Source: Methylobacter sp. S3L5C (GTDB lineage: Bacteria > Pseudomonadota > Gammaproteobacteria > Methylococcales > Methylomonadaceae). From it: a DNA stretch of 64,000 nucleotides. Of the stretch, positions 14,508-42,847 are shown one piece after another. The notes beneath the pieces were generated by a model, which was not told the DNA's origin, did not search any database, and was given only the letters and a program-made list of their open reading frames with translations. The DNA is taken from positions 930,001 to 994,000 of the forward strand of contig NZ_CP076024.1 of NCBI RefSeq assembly GCF_022788635.1. Direction: 5' to 3'. Position 1 is the first letter of the stretch, and the number at the start of each line of letters is the position of its first letter. The translations under genes were made by a program, and so were the position numbers.

Positions 14508-14840
14508 ATGAAAAAAATAGCATCCGTATTTGCAGGTTTATTGTTGTGTTTAAGCACAAACGTTTTCGCAGAAGAACACCTTGACGCTGCGTTGGAACAT
14601 GCTAACGCAGCTGTAGCTGAAGGTAAGGCAGGTAAAGCACCAAGCTTGGTCACACATGCGAAAGCAGCCCTGGATCATTCTCTGGCTGCTTCCCTCGTTA
14701 CCAAGAGCGTACAAAAAAACCATATAGACGCAGCCTCTGATTCTTTACAAGAAGCCATTGATCATGGCAATTTGAATCATGCACAACCCGCTACAAAATC
14801 TGCCGAAGAAGCAGTAACTCACCTTAAAGCGGCTAAATAG
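14508..14840 (+). CDS. smbP: Small metal-binding protein SmbP
   Basis: A 110-residue exported protein that matches the SmbP type first described from Nitrosomonas europaea. It has a signal peptide (about 1-21, ending FAEE) and then a helical body with His/Glu spaced along repeated HAxAA or HAKAALDH units (HLDAALEHANAA, VTHAKAALDHS, ALVTHLKAAK-like). SmbP binds copper and other divalent metals in the periplasm. AGGAG lies seven bases upstream of the ATG and a terminator follows, so it is a single-gene unit. Conserved His density and length support the call. Confidence 0.85.
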   Translation: MKKIASVFAGLLLCLSTNVFAEEHLDAALEHANAAVAEGKAGKAPSLVTHAKAALDHSLAASLVTKSVQKNHIDAASDSLQEAIDHGNLNHAQPATKSAEEAVTHLKAAK

Positions 14841-23318: not shown

Positions 23319-23813
23319 ATGAAAACACACACTTTTACAAAAAACTTTTTTTTGGCTGCTTTAACCAGCATTATTATTGCGCTATTAATGACTGGTTGCT
23401 CAGATGACAATGATGTCAATAAGGGAAAAAAACCACCGGTTAAAACCGTGTTTAACCCGTTTGATCATTCTCATGATGTCCCTGTGACTGATATTCAAAA
23501 GCATAAATTTGAGCATGATTTTGCTGCACAATGTGTGACAAGGGAATTGAAAAATTCCGTGAATGTAGAAGAAGACAAAGAACGCTTTTCTAAATCATGC
23601 GAATGTGTTGCGTCCGAGATGATGCAAGATTTAACGGCTCAAGAAGCTGAAAAATTTCTTACCGAACATGAAAATCCACGGTCATTACAAATCAAATATA
23701 CTGCGGCTGTTTATCATTGCACCCAACAGAGCTCAGTGAAAGGCTTTAAAACTTTTAATACACCCAAACCTGAACCTAAAAAAGAGGAAGGTTTTTTTAG
23801 CAAGTTTTTTTAG
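23319..23813 (+). CDS. Predicted lipoprotein of unknown function
   Basis: About 164 residues with an N-terminal hydrophobic segment and lipobox LMTGC (Cys about residue 28), so it should be lipid-anchored. The mature part has three further Cys (QCVTREL, SCECVAS) and a C-terminal basic tail (KPEPKKEEGFFSKFF). The region KHKFEHDFAAQCV to LRSLQIKY-like resembles small helical lipoproteins. I do not recognise the family. I chose ATG 23319; ATG 23310 and TTG 23289 are alternatives. It is convergent with the hvf-like operon. Confidence 0.6.
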   Translation: MKTHTFTKNFFLAALTSIIIALLMTGCSDDNDVNKGKKPPVKTVFNPFDHSHDVPVTDIQKHKFEHDFAAQCVTRELKNSVNVEEDKERFSKSCECVASEMMQDLTAQEAEKFLTEHENPRSLQIKYTAAVYHCTQQSSVKGFKTFNTPKPEPKKEEGFFSKFF

Positions 23814-23874: not shown

Positions 23875-24648
23875 TCAAGCTAAAATAATAATCGTTTTTT
23901 CTGCCAGTTCTTTTAAAATCTGCAAACCGCCAGCAATAATGATTTCCGGGTCAGGGTGATTGGATTCTTTTGCGACCTGCTGCAAACAATCTTCCACCAA
24001 CAGCTTTTCATGTTCCTGAATAATTTCCAGTAATCGGTAAGTCATTGGCGTAATTTCAATAAAATTAACATTATCTTCACTGTTACGGTAAACAATCAAA
24101 AATGTTAGTTGTTCAGGTGCTGCCAAAGGTAAAAAAACAGGGGCTATTTTATGAACAGGATATTGATAAGCCAATGGCCAAGCTAACGGTGACAAAGAAA
24201 CAGACTGTTTAAGGAAATTATTTAAATCCGGGTTACTGCTAACGACCTCCTCTTTGGCAATGGATAAGGCCATTTCTACCCATTCATAATGAGCCAACTC
24301 AAGCATAAAGGGAAAATCATCTGAGCTATTCCGTTCATTTTGCAAGTAATCCAGAAATTCTTCCGGAATTTGTGAAAAATGCGGCGATTGGCACGGATGT
24401 TTTACAAAAAAATCCTGAACCAAAGCCAACCATTGCTGATCGTTAAGTATCTTTCTTAAAACCGGAAAATTGCCCGACAAAAATCCCTCAATATTATTAA
24501 AAAATAACTCCCTGTACATAACCATACGTGACTCTTTAACATCTGCCGGAACAGGGTTTTTTTGAGGATCTCTAATATAAGCAGCAAATTCATCCTGTTT
24601 GCTTTTAAAGTCAACACGACCATCGGCTTTAAGCGGATTGTTTTTCAT
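23875..24648 (-). CDS. hvfC: HvfC/BufC-type RiPP maturation partner (DUF2063)
   Basis: Partner protein of the MNIO enzyme. The 257 residues start with a helical DUF2063 domain (about 20-130: FAAYIRDPQKNPVPADVKES, MVMYRELFFNNIEGFLSGNF, FLDYLQNER) followed by a C-terminal domain (about 150-255) typical of the HvfC subgroup. In known MNIO systems this partner recruits the precursor peptide to the enzyme. It overlaps the end of the enzyme gene by 20 bases, so the two are translated together. It is the last gene of the unit; a convergent lipoprotein gene follows. No DoxX-like hvfD gene is present here. Confidence 0.87.
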   Translation of the reverse strand: MKNNPLKADGRVDFKSKQDEFAAYIRDPQKNPVPADVKESRMVMYRELFFNNIEGFLSGNFPVLRKILNDQQWLALVQDFFVKHPCQSPHFSQIPEEFLDYLQNERNSSDDFPFMLELAHYEWVEMALSIAKEEVVSSNPDLNNFLKQSVSLSPLAWPLAYQYPVHKIAPVFLPLAAPEQLTFLIVYRNSEDNVNFIEITPMTYRLLEIIQEHEKLLVEDCLQQVAKESNHPDPEIIIAGGLQILKELAEKTIIILA

Positions 24649-25480
24649 GCTGTGTTCTCCACGCGTTTTGCATCGTTCTGATCGTATCGACTTCTGTTAA
24701 TAACTCAGGCATAGCGGGAATATTAAAGTCGCGTTCCAACAAAGTTGGAAATATGCCATACAGCTCGTAGGCTTTGCCCAACAATTTCCATACCGGGTCA
24801 ACAATATCGGCACCGTGCGTATCAACCAGAAAATCCTCAGCTTCAACGTAATGTCCGGCAATATGGGCATAAGCAATACGGTGTGCCGGCATAGCCTTTA
24901 AAAAAGCCTCGGCATCGTAATGGTGATTAACACTGTTGACATAAATATTATTGATATCGATCAATACATCGCAGTCTGCTTCTTCAATAACGGCATTGAA
25001 AAATTCTATCTCAGGCATTTCCTGTCCTGGAGCGGCATAATAAGAAACATTTTCAATGGCTATTTTTTGCTCAAGAATATCTTGCACACGCTTAATGCGT
25101 GCGGCGGCATGTGAAACCGCTTCAGAGGTAAACGGAATCGGCATCAGATCATACATGTGCCCGCCTTTACTGCAGTAGCTCAAATGTTCACTATAAAGTT
25201 TCATTTGATGTTCAGCCATGAACTGTTTGACATCATGGACAAATTTTTCATCCAGCGGATCTGTGCTGCCTATCGACAATGACAAACCATGACAAACAAA
25301 ATCAAAACGTTCAGTCATTGCACGAAATTGTTTACCAAATTTACCACCGATAGTGATCCAGTTTTCAGGAGCAACTTCATAAAAATCGATATTTTTTGGC
25401 GTCGTTTCAACAAGCTGACTTAACAAAGGTCGGCGCAGGCCCAAACCTGTACCATGAACGAGATGTTGAGTTGTGTCCAT
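24629..25480 (-). CDS. hvfB: MNIO-family RiPP-modifying oxygenase (DUF692; HvfB/BufB-like)
   Basis: A TIM-barrel multinuclear iron enzyme of 283 residues that modifies Cys in its precursor peptide, in related systems to thiooxazole/oxazolone-type copper ligands. Metal-site stretches visible are VCHGLSLSIGS, LYSEHLSY, IENVSYYA, VLIDINNIYVNS, IAYAHIAGH and VDTHGAD, giving the expected His/Glu/Asp/Asn set. I place the start at ATG 25480 with AGGTG five bases upstream; a longer frame from 25528 would pass through a perfect hairpin and adds unlikely residues. It stands between precursor and partner genes on the same strand. Confidence 0.9.
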   Translation of the reverse strand: MDTTQHLVHGTGLGLRRPLLSQLVETTPKNIDFYEVAPENWITIGGKFGKQFRAMTERFDFVCHGLSLSIGSTDPLDEKFVHDVKQFMAEHQMKLYSEHLSYCSKGGHMYDLMPIPFTSEAVSHAAARIKRVQDILEQKIAIENVSYYAAPGQEMPEIEFFNAVIEEADCDVLIDINNIYVNSVNHHYDAEAFLKAMPAHRIAYAHIAGHYVEAEDFLVDTHGADIVDPVWKLLGKAYELYGIFPTLLERDFNIPAMPELLTEVDTIRTMQNAWRTQHEKQSA

Positions 25481-25512
25481 AAGAACACCTGTGATTGATT
25501 TACTGGAAACTG

Positions 25513-25534
25513 GAAGGCATGATGTCATGCCTTC
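25513..25534 (-). promoter_or_regulatory. Perfect hairpin between precursor and enzyme genes
   Basis: GAAGGCATGA and its exact reverse complement TCATGCCTTC are separated by two bases, in the 104-base spacer between the hvfA-like stop and the hvfB-like start. No T-run follows on the minus strand, so it is more likely an attenuator or RNA-stabilising/processing site than a terminator. A second inverted repeat (AAGTGTTA 25543-25550 / TAACACTT 25575-25582) lies nearer the precursor stop. Confidence 0.6.
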
Positions 25535-25584
25535 ACTATTGCAAGTGTTAGTTGGGGCATAAACTAAACCCTATTAACACTTTT

Positions 25585-26046
25585 TTATTTTGCTGGAGCA
25601 GCTGGAGTTGCAGGCATATTCATTTTATCGCCGCAAGCGCCTTCTTTGCCCTTCATTGACTCGCCTTTGTTCATTTCACCGCAGGCACCTTCTTTGCCTT
25701 TCATCATGGCACCACAAGAAGCTTCCATACCGGGCTTCATTTTACCGTCTTTCATCATGTCACCACATGAGCCTTCGGTAGCTTTTGCTGCTGCTGGTGC
25801 AGCCGCAGCATGATTTTTAGCACCTGCACAGGCGCCTTCCGGAGCTTTAGGTTTAGCCATTCCGCCCATAGCAGCGCCACAAGACATTTCTGCGGCTTTA
25901 TCCGCTTCAGCAACCTGCATATAACCAGCCGACAGCTCGGTCATGCCAAATGGATTAACTTCCGCATTAGCAGCAGTTACAGCAAACGTTGAAATTAAAA
26001 CAGCACCCATAGCAGCAACTAAAGGTGTTTTATTGATTTTTTTCAT
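25585..26046 (-). CDS. hvfA: HvfA/BufA-like Cys-rich RiPP precursor peptide
   Basis: A 153-residue exported peptide. Residues 1-28 are a signal peptide (ends ANA), followed by NPFGMTELSAGYMQVAEA, a stretch I recognise as the conserved N-terminal region of HvfA-type precursors. The Cys-rich core then has six Cys: MSCG (C56), EGACA (C73), EGSCG (C94), EASCG (C111), EGACG (C122) and EGACG (C138). EGxCG repeats are the modification sites in copper-binding HvfA. The linkers are rich in Met and Lys. I chose ATG 26046 with GGGAG upstream; the TTG at 26058 is not needed. It is the first gene of the hvfABC unit. Confidence 0.88.
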   Translation of the reverse strand: MKKINKTPLVAAMGAVLISTFAVTAANAEVNPFGMTELSAGYMQVAEADKAAEMSCGAAMGGMAKPKAPEGACAGAKNHAAAAPAAAKATEGSCGDMMKDGKMKPGMEASCGAMMKGKEGACGEMNKGESMKGKEGACGDKMNMPATPAAPAK

Positions 26047-26073: not shown

Positions 26074-26096
26074 TTCGATAAGTAAAACTTATCGAA
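26074..26096 (-). promoter_or_regulatory. Perfect palindrome upstream of hvfA-like gene
   Basis: Arms TTCGATAAGT and ACTTATCGAA separated by AAA form an exact 23-base inverted repeat, 27 bases before the precursor start codon. A TATAAT-like box (26064-26069 on the minus strand) lies directly downstream, so the palindrome would overlap the promoter spacer or -35 region. It is a good candidate for an operator. Confidence 0.65.
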
Positions 26097-26267
26097 TAAA
26101 ACCATCATACCAAAGACCGATAAATAAATATCCTTTTACCCGAACATAGTAGCTTCATCCTGACTGTAAAAGTCTTAAAGAGTTCAGCCATCATCACTAA
26201 ACAGCACTCGGACAAGATGCTAAATAGATACAGATACAAGGCCTATCGCTATCTTTAGCTTGAAAAT

Positions 26268-40549: not shown

Positions 40550-40805
40550 TTGATCGCCTACTGTTTGATATTATGAAGTAAATGAAGGGAGTCGCTATTT
40601 TTGCGAAAGATTTTTCCGGGCTTCCTGCTCGAAAAATCAGCAAAAAATTACGCGACCGCCAATGCCTTCGGCTGCCCCGATTCGTCCTCGTCACCTCGTT
40701 TCTACCCAACAAGGGGGCGAAACATAGGTTCCAAAGACTTGACGCTGTTTCGTAAAGCCTGCATTTTATCGGGTCAGAGGAGGCCGCAGCCTCCGACTGC
40801 CCACA

Positions 40806-40835
40806 GAACCGTGCGTACGGATCCGTACACGGTTC
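40806..40835 (-). ncRNA. Group II intron domain V
   Basis: The minus strand reads GAACCGTG...CACGGTTC, a stem with an inner GTACGGATCCGTAC hairpin. This matches the small catalytic domain V, and it directly follows the stop codon of the reverse-transcriptase frame. Confidence 0.7.
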
Positions 40836-40836
40836 G

Positions 40837-42105
40837 TCACGTAAGGCGTATCCATTGTGAAACTTCAAACCAATGTGCCATTTTCTGGTCGGATCGTACT
40901 TTCTGTCCTTTCAGGTTAATAAACCAACTGTTGGGATAAGCCCGCGTTACCGCTCGCTCGGCTGAGAGCACCCAACGGCTGTTATTTGAAAAGACGGCAT
41001 TAGCTGCCTGTTTTAGTGGTACAGCCTGCTTGACCAGCGAGTGATAAAGAGGCTTTTTACGCTTTTGCTGATAAACCAACCGTTACCTTAATCGTCGCCG
41101 AATGTGGGCTTCAATTTTCATCAATTGGGATGGGTAATTGGTCAATCAGTAATAATTTGACCAACCCACGTACCATTAATTGATTTCTTTCAAAGTGGTA
41201 TCTAGCGTTTTATAGGTGCCTCGCGGCGTTAGCACCTTGACTTTAGCCATGGCAGTTTGCTGGGCTTTATGCTCAATGGCAATCGTCCCATTAACCACGG
41301 TAAAACCCAATAACTTTACCTTATCAGATAAAGCGACTCTGCTTTTATCCTGATTCACCTGAAGTTTAAGCGTCTTTTCAATGAACCGGCTGATCGTTTC
41401 CATCACTCGCTCCGCCGCCTTTTTCGACTTGACCAAGAGGTTACAGTCATCGGCTAACCGACAAAATTCCAGTCCGTGTTTTTCCAGTTCCTGATCAAGT
41501 TCATCCAGAACGATGTTGCTCAGCAAAGGGCTTAAGGGGCTGCCTTGCATCGCTCCTTCCTTGCTGGGATTGACGACACCATTGATCATAACACCACTAC
41601 GCAACAATAGGCCAATTAAGCGTAGTACGCGTTTATCGGCTATCTTCTGCCCCATACGGGCTATAAGCCGATCATGGTGAATACGATCAAAGAATTTCGA
41701 TAGATCAATATCCACCACAAAAGGCTTACCACTGTTGATAATCTGTTGCGCTGCCTGCACCGCTTGATGCGGACTCCGCCCAGGGCGGAAGCCAGAGCTG
41801 TTCGGTGAAAAATTCGGCTAAAAAATCGGTTCCAGCAGCAGTTTTAAAGTTGTCTGTACCACACGATCCCACACCGTCGGAATACCAAGCAAACGTATCC
41901 CTTTGCCATCCGGCTTCGGGATTTCTACTCGGCGTACTGACGAGGGTTGATAAGTCCACGTTGTCAATTCCTGTTGCAACTGGCTTAGCTCTTCGTCCAA
42001 AGTGGCTTCAATGTCCGTTATACCCACGCCATCAATGCTGGGTGCGCCTCGGTTTCTTCTGACCAATTCTCGGCAATTGCTCCTGCATTGCTCTACCTCC
42101 TGCAT
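40837..42105 (-). pseudogene. ltrA: Group II intron reverse transcriptase/maturase, four in-frame stops
   Basis: One reading frame can be followed from 42105 to 40837. N-terminal RT0-RT2 reads LVRRNRGAPSIDGVG and RRVEIPKPDGKGIRLLGIPT; then the RT palm (FVVDIDLSKFFDRIHHDRL, EGAMQGSPLSPLLSNIVLDE), the active-site box CRLADDCNLL, in which the usual Tyr of YADD is Leu, and a maturase domain (SQLMKIEAHIRRRLR, SRWVLSAERAVTRAYPNSWF). It is interrupted by TAG at 41818-41820, TAA at 41176-41178, TGA near 41147 and TAA near 41080 without any frameshift. It cannot yield full protein unless another copy supplies it in trans. Confidence 0.8.
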
Positions 42106-42847
42106 CCATGCAGTCGAAAGCCTACGCCCAAATATAAAGTTGAGCAGAGGGTTTCAAAGAGTCTGGGTTCTTCAATTAATTGGCTCATGGTCGCTTACTT
42201 CACGCTTGTTTACAGAGGGCTTTCATCAATCTCGCACGGCTAATTCGTTCACTGTTTACAACGCGAATAGTTAACCGCTCCTATCAGGCTAATCTCAGTC
42301 CTCCAGTCTCTAATCAACGGCCATAGCCGCTTACGTGTTTCGCCCTTCACCTCCAACATCCTGTCGCTGATTCGATGCTTTACCCTCGTCCATGTCACCA
42401 TAAATTCATCGGCACCGAACTTTACGATTACTACGGCTTCATCTGTAGATCCCCGATTCATAACGTCAACATCACTGCTGCGCTTAGGGCTTAAGGTGTC
42501 GCAGTTACACCGACCCAAACCGACGGCCCTTCACTGGGTAAGATAGTCACCTTTGTTTCGATCCACCTACCTTCAATACGACAACTCGTTACGGTGAGAA
42601 TATCGGGCTTCGGTGGTTGCGGGCACCTTACCCCCTTGTTGCCGCCTTACGAAGATTCACTTTCGTTTAGGTGAACGATTTGGTTTCAGCTTCCTTCAGA
42701 TTCCTCATTGGCTCTCAATAACCGTGCTTCCCTATTGGGTAGCTACGCAGAGTTTCTTTGGACACCCTTGCCTTCGCCTACATTTTCCCTTCTCACAGGG
42801 CAATGGCTGGACTTCCACCAGCTAGCTGACTAACATGCCAGTCGCAC
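42106..42847 (-). ncRNA. Group II intron RNA domains I-III
   Basis: The 740-base part between the intron start and the protein frame has no coding capacity of its own, but many short complementary segments, as expected for the ribozyme scaffold. Apparent frames here are spurious. Confidence 0.6.

Follow-up and report, generated by a model that had tools for sequence, protein, structure and literature searches.

The 64,000-bp stretch of the genome of Methylobacter sp. S3L5C analyzed here (hereafter, the window) contains what is, judged by its sequence, an operon of the known captophorin/oxazolin type, a three-gene locus at 23,875–26,046 on the minus strand. We consider it probable (roughly 0.78) that this operon of a gammaproteobacterial methanotroph would make a periplasmic copper-buffering protein carrying 5-thiooxazoles. 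The operon type itself is already known; beyond it, the results concern the missing HvfA hallmark motif of the precursor, the drift of this motif at the family level, and the prevalence of the system in the order Methylococcales. In the literature searched, no account was found of a captophorin-type operon in gammaproteobacterial methanotrophs; supplementary tables lay outside the search and may list one.

The preliminary description had placed ORFs for a precursor, an MNIO/DUF692 enzyme, and a DUF2063 partner in this region, and all three were recovered on the minus strand. The identity and order of the genes, their conservation, and their sequence features were observed directly. The precursor gene (hvfA-like; 25,585–26,046), defined by its ORF and motifs, encodes 153 aa from its ATG. 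It is followed after a gap of 56 bp by hvfB (24,629–25,528; 299-aa ORF), the gene of the MNIO (DUF692) RiPP maturase, whose ORF shares an overlap of 20 bp with that of hvfC (23,875–24,648; 257 aa), which encodes a DUF2063 + RRE-type partner protein (PME type 1, PME1). Thus, as in captophorin operons, a Cys-rich precursor (here a six-Cys ORF) is encoded beside an MNIO and a PME1. On the plus strand, convergent with hvfC, a putative small lipoprotein of 163 aa (23,322–23,813) matched no family over cut-off; it was found in 40 of the 71 relatives with enough flanking sequence.

The host genome (4.8 Mb, one contig) contains one match to PF02461 (AMO/pMMO), and the strain was therefore regarded as a methanotroph. 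The enzyme is the sole MNIO of the genome (one PF05114 match), and the precursor is likewise present in a single copy. The previously noted lack of a DoxX-type gene holds genome-wide, with no match to PF07681 or PF13564, and a DoxX-dependent reading was rejected. Since BGCs of this group have been published with core genes “in various combinations” (PMC12452194), the missing DoxX is not unusual. No copper genes were recognized adjoining the operon. The small metal-binding protein SmbP, mentioned in the preliminary description, was indeed found 11 kb away (14,508–14,840, plus strand; PF16785, 106 bits). The only Rfam matches at gathering thresholds were to group II introns (40,768–40,837 and 42,543–42,712, minus strand; RF00029, RF02001).

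Both maturation proteins were assigned by profile models. The enzyme scored 350 bits with PF05114 and 438.6 bits with the HvfB model NF003818 (cut-off 360), and the partner matched PF09836 (DUF2063) and PF22106 (NGO1945_C) and scored 316.2 bits with the HvfC model NF050145 (cut-off 142). The two captophorin components, an HvfB-type MNIO and a PME1 with DUF2063 and an RRE-type domain, are therefore both present. The profile search suggested in the preliminary description bore out the enzyme and its partner in this way, whereas no HvfA model matched the precursor. Among the solved structures, the best sequence match of HvfB was 3BWW, and 3DEE was a sequence relative of HvfC; PMC13097082 names both as belonging to bona fide RiPP systems. 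The AlphaFold model of the enzyme (mean pLDDT 82.5; residues 1–20 below 50) showed the strand–helix alternation of a TIM barrel. An Arg-Arg pair was located in the motif GLRRP (from residue 30) and an Asp-Phe pair in RDFN (from residue 266). By motif, rather than by alignment to FonB, these may be equated with Arg15/Arg16 and Asp249/Phe250 of FonB (PMC13097082). The true start of hvfB may be an internal ATG at 25,480, because the alignments of many remoter relatives begin only near residue 14; those of the closest relatives begin at residue 1.

The precursor begins with a Sec-type signal peptide, MKKINKTPLVAAMGAVLISTFAVTAANA (judged by eye), and the six Cys counted in it agree with the earlier report of a signal-peptide precursor with six Cys. 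A conserved leader, EVNPFGMTELSAGYMQVAEA, precedes six isolated E-x-(A/S)-C-(G/A) motifs, in order EMSCG, EGACA, EGSCG, EASCG, EGACG, and EGACG, with the Cys at positions 56, 73, 94, 111, 122, and 138 (spacings 17, 21, 17, 11, and 16). The EG(A/S)CG-like pattern given previously thus fits strictly at three of the six Cys, and the broader pattern fits all six. The chain is Met-rich, and Lys precedes none of the six Cys; the tandem KCGxxKCG and the hallmark EGKCG/KCGExKCG are absent. Assuming cleavage before EVNPF, the mature part has 125 aa and an unmodified average mass of 12341.2; its 15 Met and 15 Lys are in line with the Met/Lys-rich linkers described before. The precursor had also been called long, but its length is not special within the published range of the group, 31–506 aa (PMC12452194).

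No Pfam or NCBIfam model matched the precursor, and the HvfA models NF050137 and NF050188 gave no match at E ≤ 1. In the same run, the HvfA domain model NF050137 matched three canonical precursors with 59–86 bits, all of which remained under the NF050188 cut-off. The precursor of one Methylobacter tundripaludum locus (L012) barely exceeded the NF050137 cut-off (20.4 vs. 19.5 bits). Because this intermediate passes the domain model and the window’s peptide does not, the latter was read not as an unrelated peptide but as a derived HvfA that lacks both the tandem motif and Lys at motif position 3. Of the features of HvfA/oxazolin precursors, it has the Sec signal (by eye) and the PF...GY leader, and lacks the EGKCG repeats and the tandem KCGExKCG.

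Eighty loci of the nearest relatives were fetched, the closest HvfB being that of Methylobacter psychrophilus (96%). A recognizable precursor was found upstream of hvfB in 75 of them; among the other five, three had no upstream sequence, one (L020) had a two-Cys precursor, and one (L082) had none. With enough flank, hvfC was present in 75/75 loci and nth in 63/69, and the neighborhood is therefore stable; the retention of both precursor and hvfC makes it unlikely that the precursor is there by chance. In L020, the precursor retains the leader and linkers with only two Cys, a natural Cys loss, and hvfB aligns over residues 6–299. Two further loci (L040 and L041) have two tandem precursor genes, with 4 and 9 Cys, before one hvfB. 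The PF...GY leader occurred in all 78 precursors of the nearest-relative set, which were picked by a script with a near-identical pattern; among the 28 precursors from outside the order, whose selection did not use that pattern, 23 had it.

Comparison of the Cys motifs revealed that Lys gives way by degrees to Ala/Ser within the window’s own family, Methylomonadaceae; in the other sampled families of the order, Lys is retained. In the nearest-relative set (the window’s precursor plus 77 from the 75 loci), which is biased to Methylobacter and its kin, 667 CG/CA cysteines were preceded by Lys in 138 cases and by Ala or Ser in 433. The own-family sample (28 loci, 23 with a precursor; of the five without, L162 has no upstream sequence) gave 24 precursors with 192 such cysteines, preceded by Lys in 60, Ala in 70, and Ser in 32 cases; just 3 of the 24 had no Lys whatever before Cys. 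In the other families of the order, Lys preceded 85/102 CG/CA cysteines (20 loci, 19 of them with one precursor each; none in L142). Outside the order, where 26 of the 30 top-scoring HvfB loci yielded 28 precursors (none in L104, L108, L115, and L119), the figure was 195/211, although these controls, being the highest HvfB scorers, may be unusually canonical. A grouping of the order versus all others was discarded as having the wrong scope, since the first loci were the window’s nearest relatives and other families keep Lys.

The tandem arrangement was compared in the same four samples. The string KCGxxKC(G/A) was found in 20/78 precursors of the nearest set, 7/24 of the own family, 6/19 of the other families of the order, and 26/28 from outside it; for any CGxxxCG tandem, the values were 34/78, 16/24, 15/19, and 27/28, respectively. 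The strict state with neither Lys nor tandem was seen in 22 of the 78 nearest-set precursors, the window’s included. A CGxMM or CGMM string occurred in 75/78 nearest-relative precursors, and CGxMM in 0/28 from outside the order.

A difference was also observed in the enzyme. Residue 121 of HvfB, in the segment SEHLSYCS-x-GH, was Asp in 30/30 class members outside the order, whereas in the order set (n = 89) it was Lys in 55, His in 18, Asn in 7, and Gln in 6. Precursors accompanying Lys121 enzymes had a mean Lys fraction of 0.14 (n = 51) vs. 0.35 for His121 (n = 15). In a quick tree, 81 rows of the order lay on one side of one branch and 26 others on the opposite side. Enzyme–substrate co-evolution at this residue is not claimed: only three supported independent pairs were available, which gives no power, and on average 0.8 of them pointed in the expected direction, 0.2 in the opposite one, and 1.9 showed no difference. 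In the AlphaFold model, residue 121 is found at the margin of a loop of low confidence (121–125).

Upstream of the precursor gene, a probable extended −10 element of the operon promoter, TGGTATGAT, was located at 26,104–26,112 (minus strand), as similar TGnTATnAT strings precede hvfA by 60–126 bp in many, not all, relatives. Directly after it, at 26,074–26,096 (minus strand), lies a dyad, TTCGATAAG-TTTTA-CTTATCGAA, and in the Methylobacter group a TTCGAT...ATCGA dyad likewise follows the −10-like string. Stem pairs are kept in the relatives: among 40 distinct aligned sequences, obtained from the 47 regions in which a −10-like string was found, the four outer pairs were formed in 37–40 and the two inner ones in 32 and 27, with six pair types at the innermost position. 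The pattern TTCGAT-N6..13-ATCGAA had one site in the genome, and since a reversed control pattern also occurred once, this count alone means little. The dyad could act as an operator or form a 5′ hairpin. The one terminator-like match, upstream of hvfA, is the dyad itself.

Among the systems already characterized, the oxazolin operon hvfABC(X) of nontypeable Haemophilus influenzae encodes an HvfA with three AEGKCGEGKCG motifs (PMC13419390). The window’s locus resembles it in having a Sec precursor, HvfB, and HvfC in one operon, with six candidate Cys and passing HvfB and HvfC models, and differs in the isolated motifs and in the lack of a DoxX (HvfX) match in the genome. Fontiphorin and gonophorin, the captophorins (PMC13097082), share the MNIO, the DUF2063/RRE partner, the Cys-repeat precursor, and the Arg-Arg and Asp-Phe residues; however, their motif is EGKCG with Lys before Cys, and in the window it is Ala or Ser with wide spacing. 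The bulbicupramide operon mmrABC of Microbulbifer (PMC12538549) is similar in its three genes, conserved leader, strain-variable Cys number, and lineage-wide conservation, but has EGKCG motifs. Its authors were hesitant to assign a copper-protective role and note no methanotroph-like copper need there (PMC12538549); the window’s host should have such a need.

Two further readings, a Buf1 bufferin and methanobactin, were considered and rejected on model scores. The bufferins Buf1 and Buf2 are also exported, MNIO-modified, and copper-related, but their precursors are of the DUF2282 or 6/12-Cys kind (PMC12452194). Here, no Pfam match (and hence no DUF2282) was obtained for the precursor, and the BufB model NF050167 gave 266.5 bits on the enzyme, under its cut-off of 310, which speaks against a Buf1 bufferin. 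Methanobactin (MbnA/B/C) is likewise an MNIO-made copper peptide of methanotrophs, but its heterocycle differs, being an oxazolone/thioamide (PMC12452194), and the MbnB model TIGR04159 gave only 51.2 of the required 325 bits on the genome’s sole MNIO.

The prevalence of HvfB was assessed in 151 genomes of the order (≥90% complete) and in 276 genomes of the class, 3 of them from the order. HvfB exceeded the cut-off in 140/151 genomes of the order, and matches at E 0.001 were found in 150/151. In the class sample, it exceeded the cut-off in 89/276 genomes, that is, in 86/273 outside the order (Fisher p 1e-37, ignoring shared descent). PF02461 was present in 131/151 genomes of the order, and MbnB exceeded its cut-off in one of the 151 (G053, 403 bits), which also has HvfB. 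The 11 genomes of the order without an over-cut-off HvfB comprised ten of one family (f6) and one other (G114). PF02461 is still present in 8 of these 11 (7/10 of f6 and G114), and most of the 20 genomes without a PF02461 match have HvfB, which argues against a strict link between HvfB and methanotrophy. Members of f6 match the HvfB model at about 1e-79 to 1e-85 only; they may carry a bufferin-type MNIO instead.

For the product of the locus, leader binding, modification, export, copper binding, and buffering are inferred from characterized relatives, from which the secreted, modified copper-binding role proposed in the preliminary description also follows and gains support. In the cytoplasm, the RRE of HvfC would bind the precursor leader and present the precursor to HvfB. 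The latter, an iron-dependent oxidase, would convert the Cys in E-x-(A/S)-C-(G/A) into 5-thiooxazoles, each Cys losing 4 H; this is the reaction now attributed to enzymes of the class (PMC13097082). The Sec signal would then direct export of the modified protein, and in the periplasm its thiooxazole thiols (up to six), perhaps together with flanking Met, would bind Cu(I) and limit the level of free copper. This buffering reading is favored because HvfB and HvfC exceed equivalog cut-offs, the GLRRP and RDFN motifs are present, the leader is shared, intermediates link the precursor to canonical HvfA, FonBC tolerates Ala in its substrate motif, hvfC is retained in every locus with enough flank, and the host is a methanotroph. 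Weighing against it are the missing tandem repeats, the caution of the bulbicupramide authors about copper protection, and the absence of a recognized copper gene beside the operon, SmbP being 11 kb distant.

The isolated motifs bear directly on the modification step. In vitro, FonBC tolerated Ala both at position 3 and directly following the Cys (PMC13097082); a Ser variant at position 3 is not named in that text. The minimal FonBC substrate consisted of two tandem repeats, and a one-repeat peptide was left unmodified (PMC13097082). Since the window’s precursor has no tandem repeat, partial or no modification would be possible under a FonB-like rule; if all six motifs are modified, the enzyme must have a looser spacing rule than FonBC. 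A partly decayed system, in which the tandem KCGxxKCG has been lost, some Cys are modified while others stay plain thiols, and much of the binding falls to the Met-rich chain, would agree with the strict state shared by the window’s precursor and with the two-Cys relative in L020. We consider it improbable nonetheless, as expanded repeats in relatives hold up to 15 Cys and the Cys surroundings are mostly E...(A/S/K)C(G/A), which looks like selection, and in the window both the hvfB and hvfC ORFs are uninterrupted, with good model scores.

Compared with protection by copper buffering, a modified periplasmic protein that mainly stores copper and hands it to pMMO assembly is a tentative and rather unlikely reading. 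The frequency of HvfB in the order against that in the rest of the class, together with the common PF02461 and the rarity of MbnB, would suit such a reservoir; however, prevalence is no proof of function, and pMMO-type genes persist in most of the genomes without an over-cut-off HvfB. A role with another metal or a redox role (zinc, gold, oxidative stress) instead of copper appears very unlikely: no copper gene was recognized beside the operon, but the host family depends on copper for pMMO. Gold and oxidative stress are among the inducers of the class, yet its products generally bind Cu (PMC13097082). The copper-buffering protein remains the preferred product of the operon.

Copper controls methane oxidation, and methanobactin is the best known copper peptide of methanotrophs. 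Several genomes of methanotrophs, some of them gammaproteobacterial, are reported to lack it (PMC3621798). Given how rarely MbnB and how commonly HvfB occurs in the sampled genomes of the order, a different MNIO-made copper peptide, open to study by gene deletion, is a concrete candidate for copper handling there. As a speculative extension, which we hold with little confidence, a widespread captophorin may serve as a general periplasmic copper reservoir for pMMO in the mostly methanobactin-less gammaproteobacterial methanotrophs; in the Methylobacter line, its precursor would have been remodeled to carry spaced E-x-(A/S)-C-(G/A) motifs along a Met-rich chain, and the maturase would have to modify single motifs rather than tandem pairs. 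The natural lack of the tandem Lys-Cys motif offers a ready test of the substrate needs of HvfB-type enzymes.
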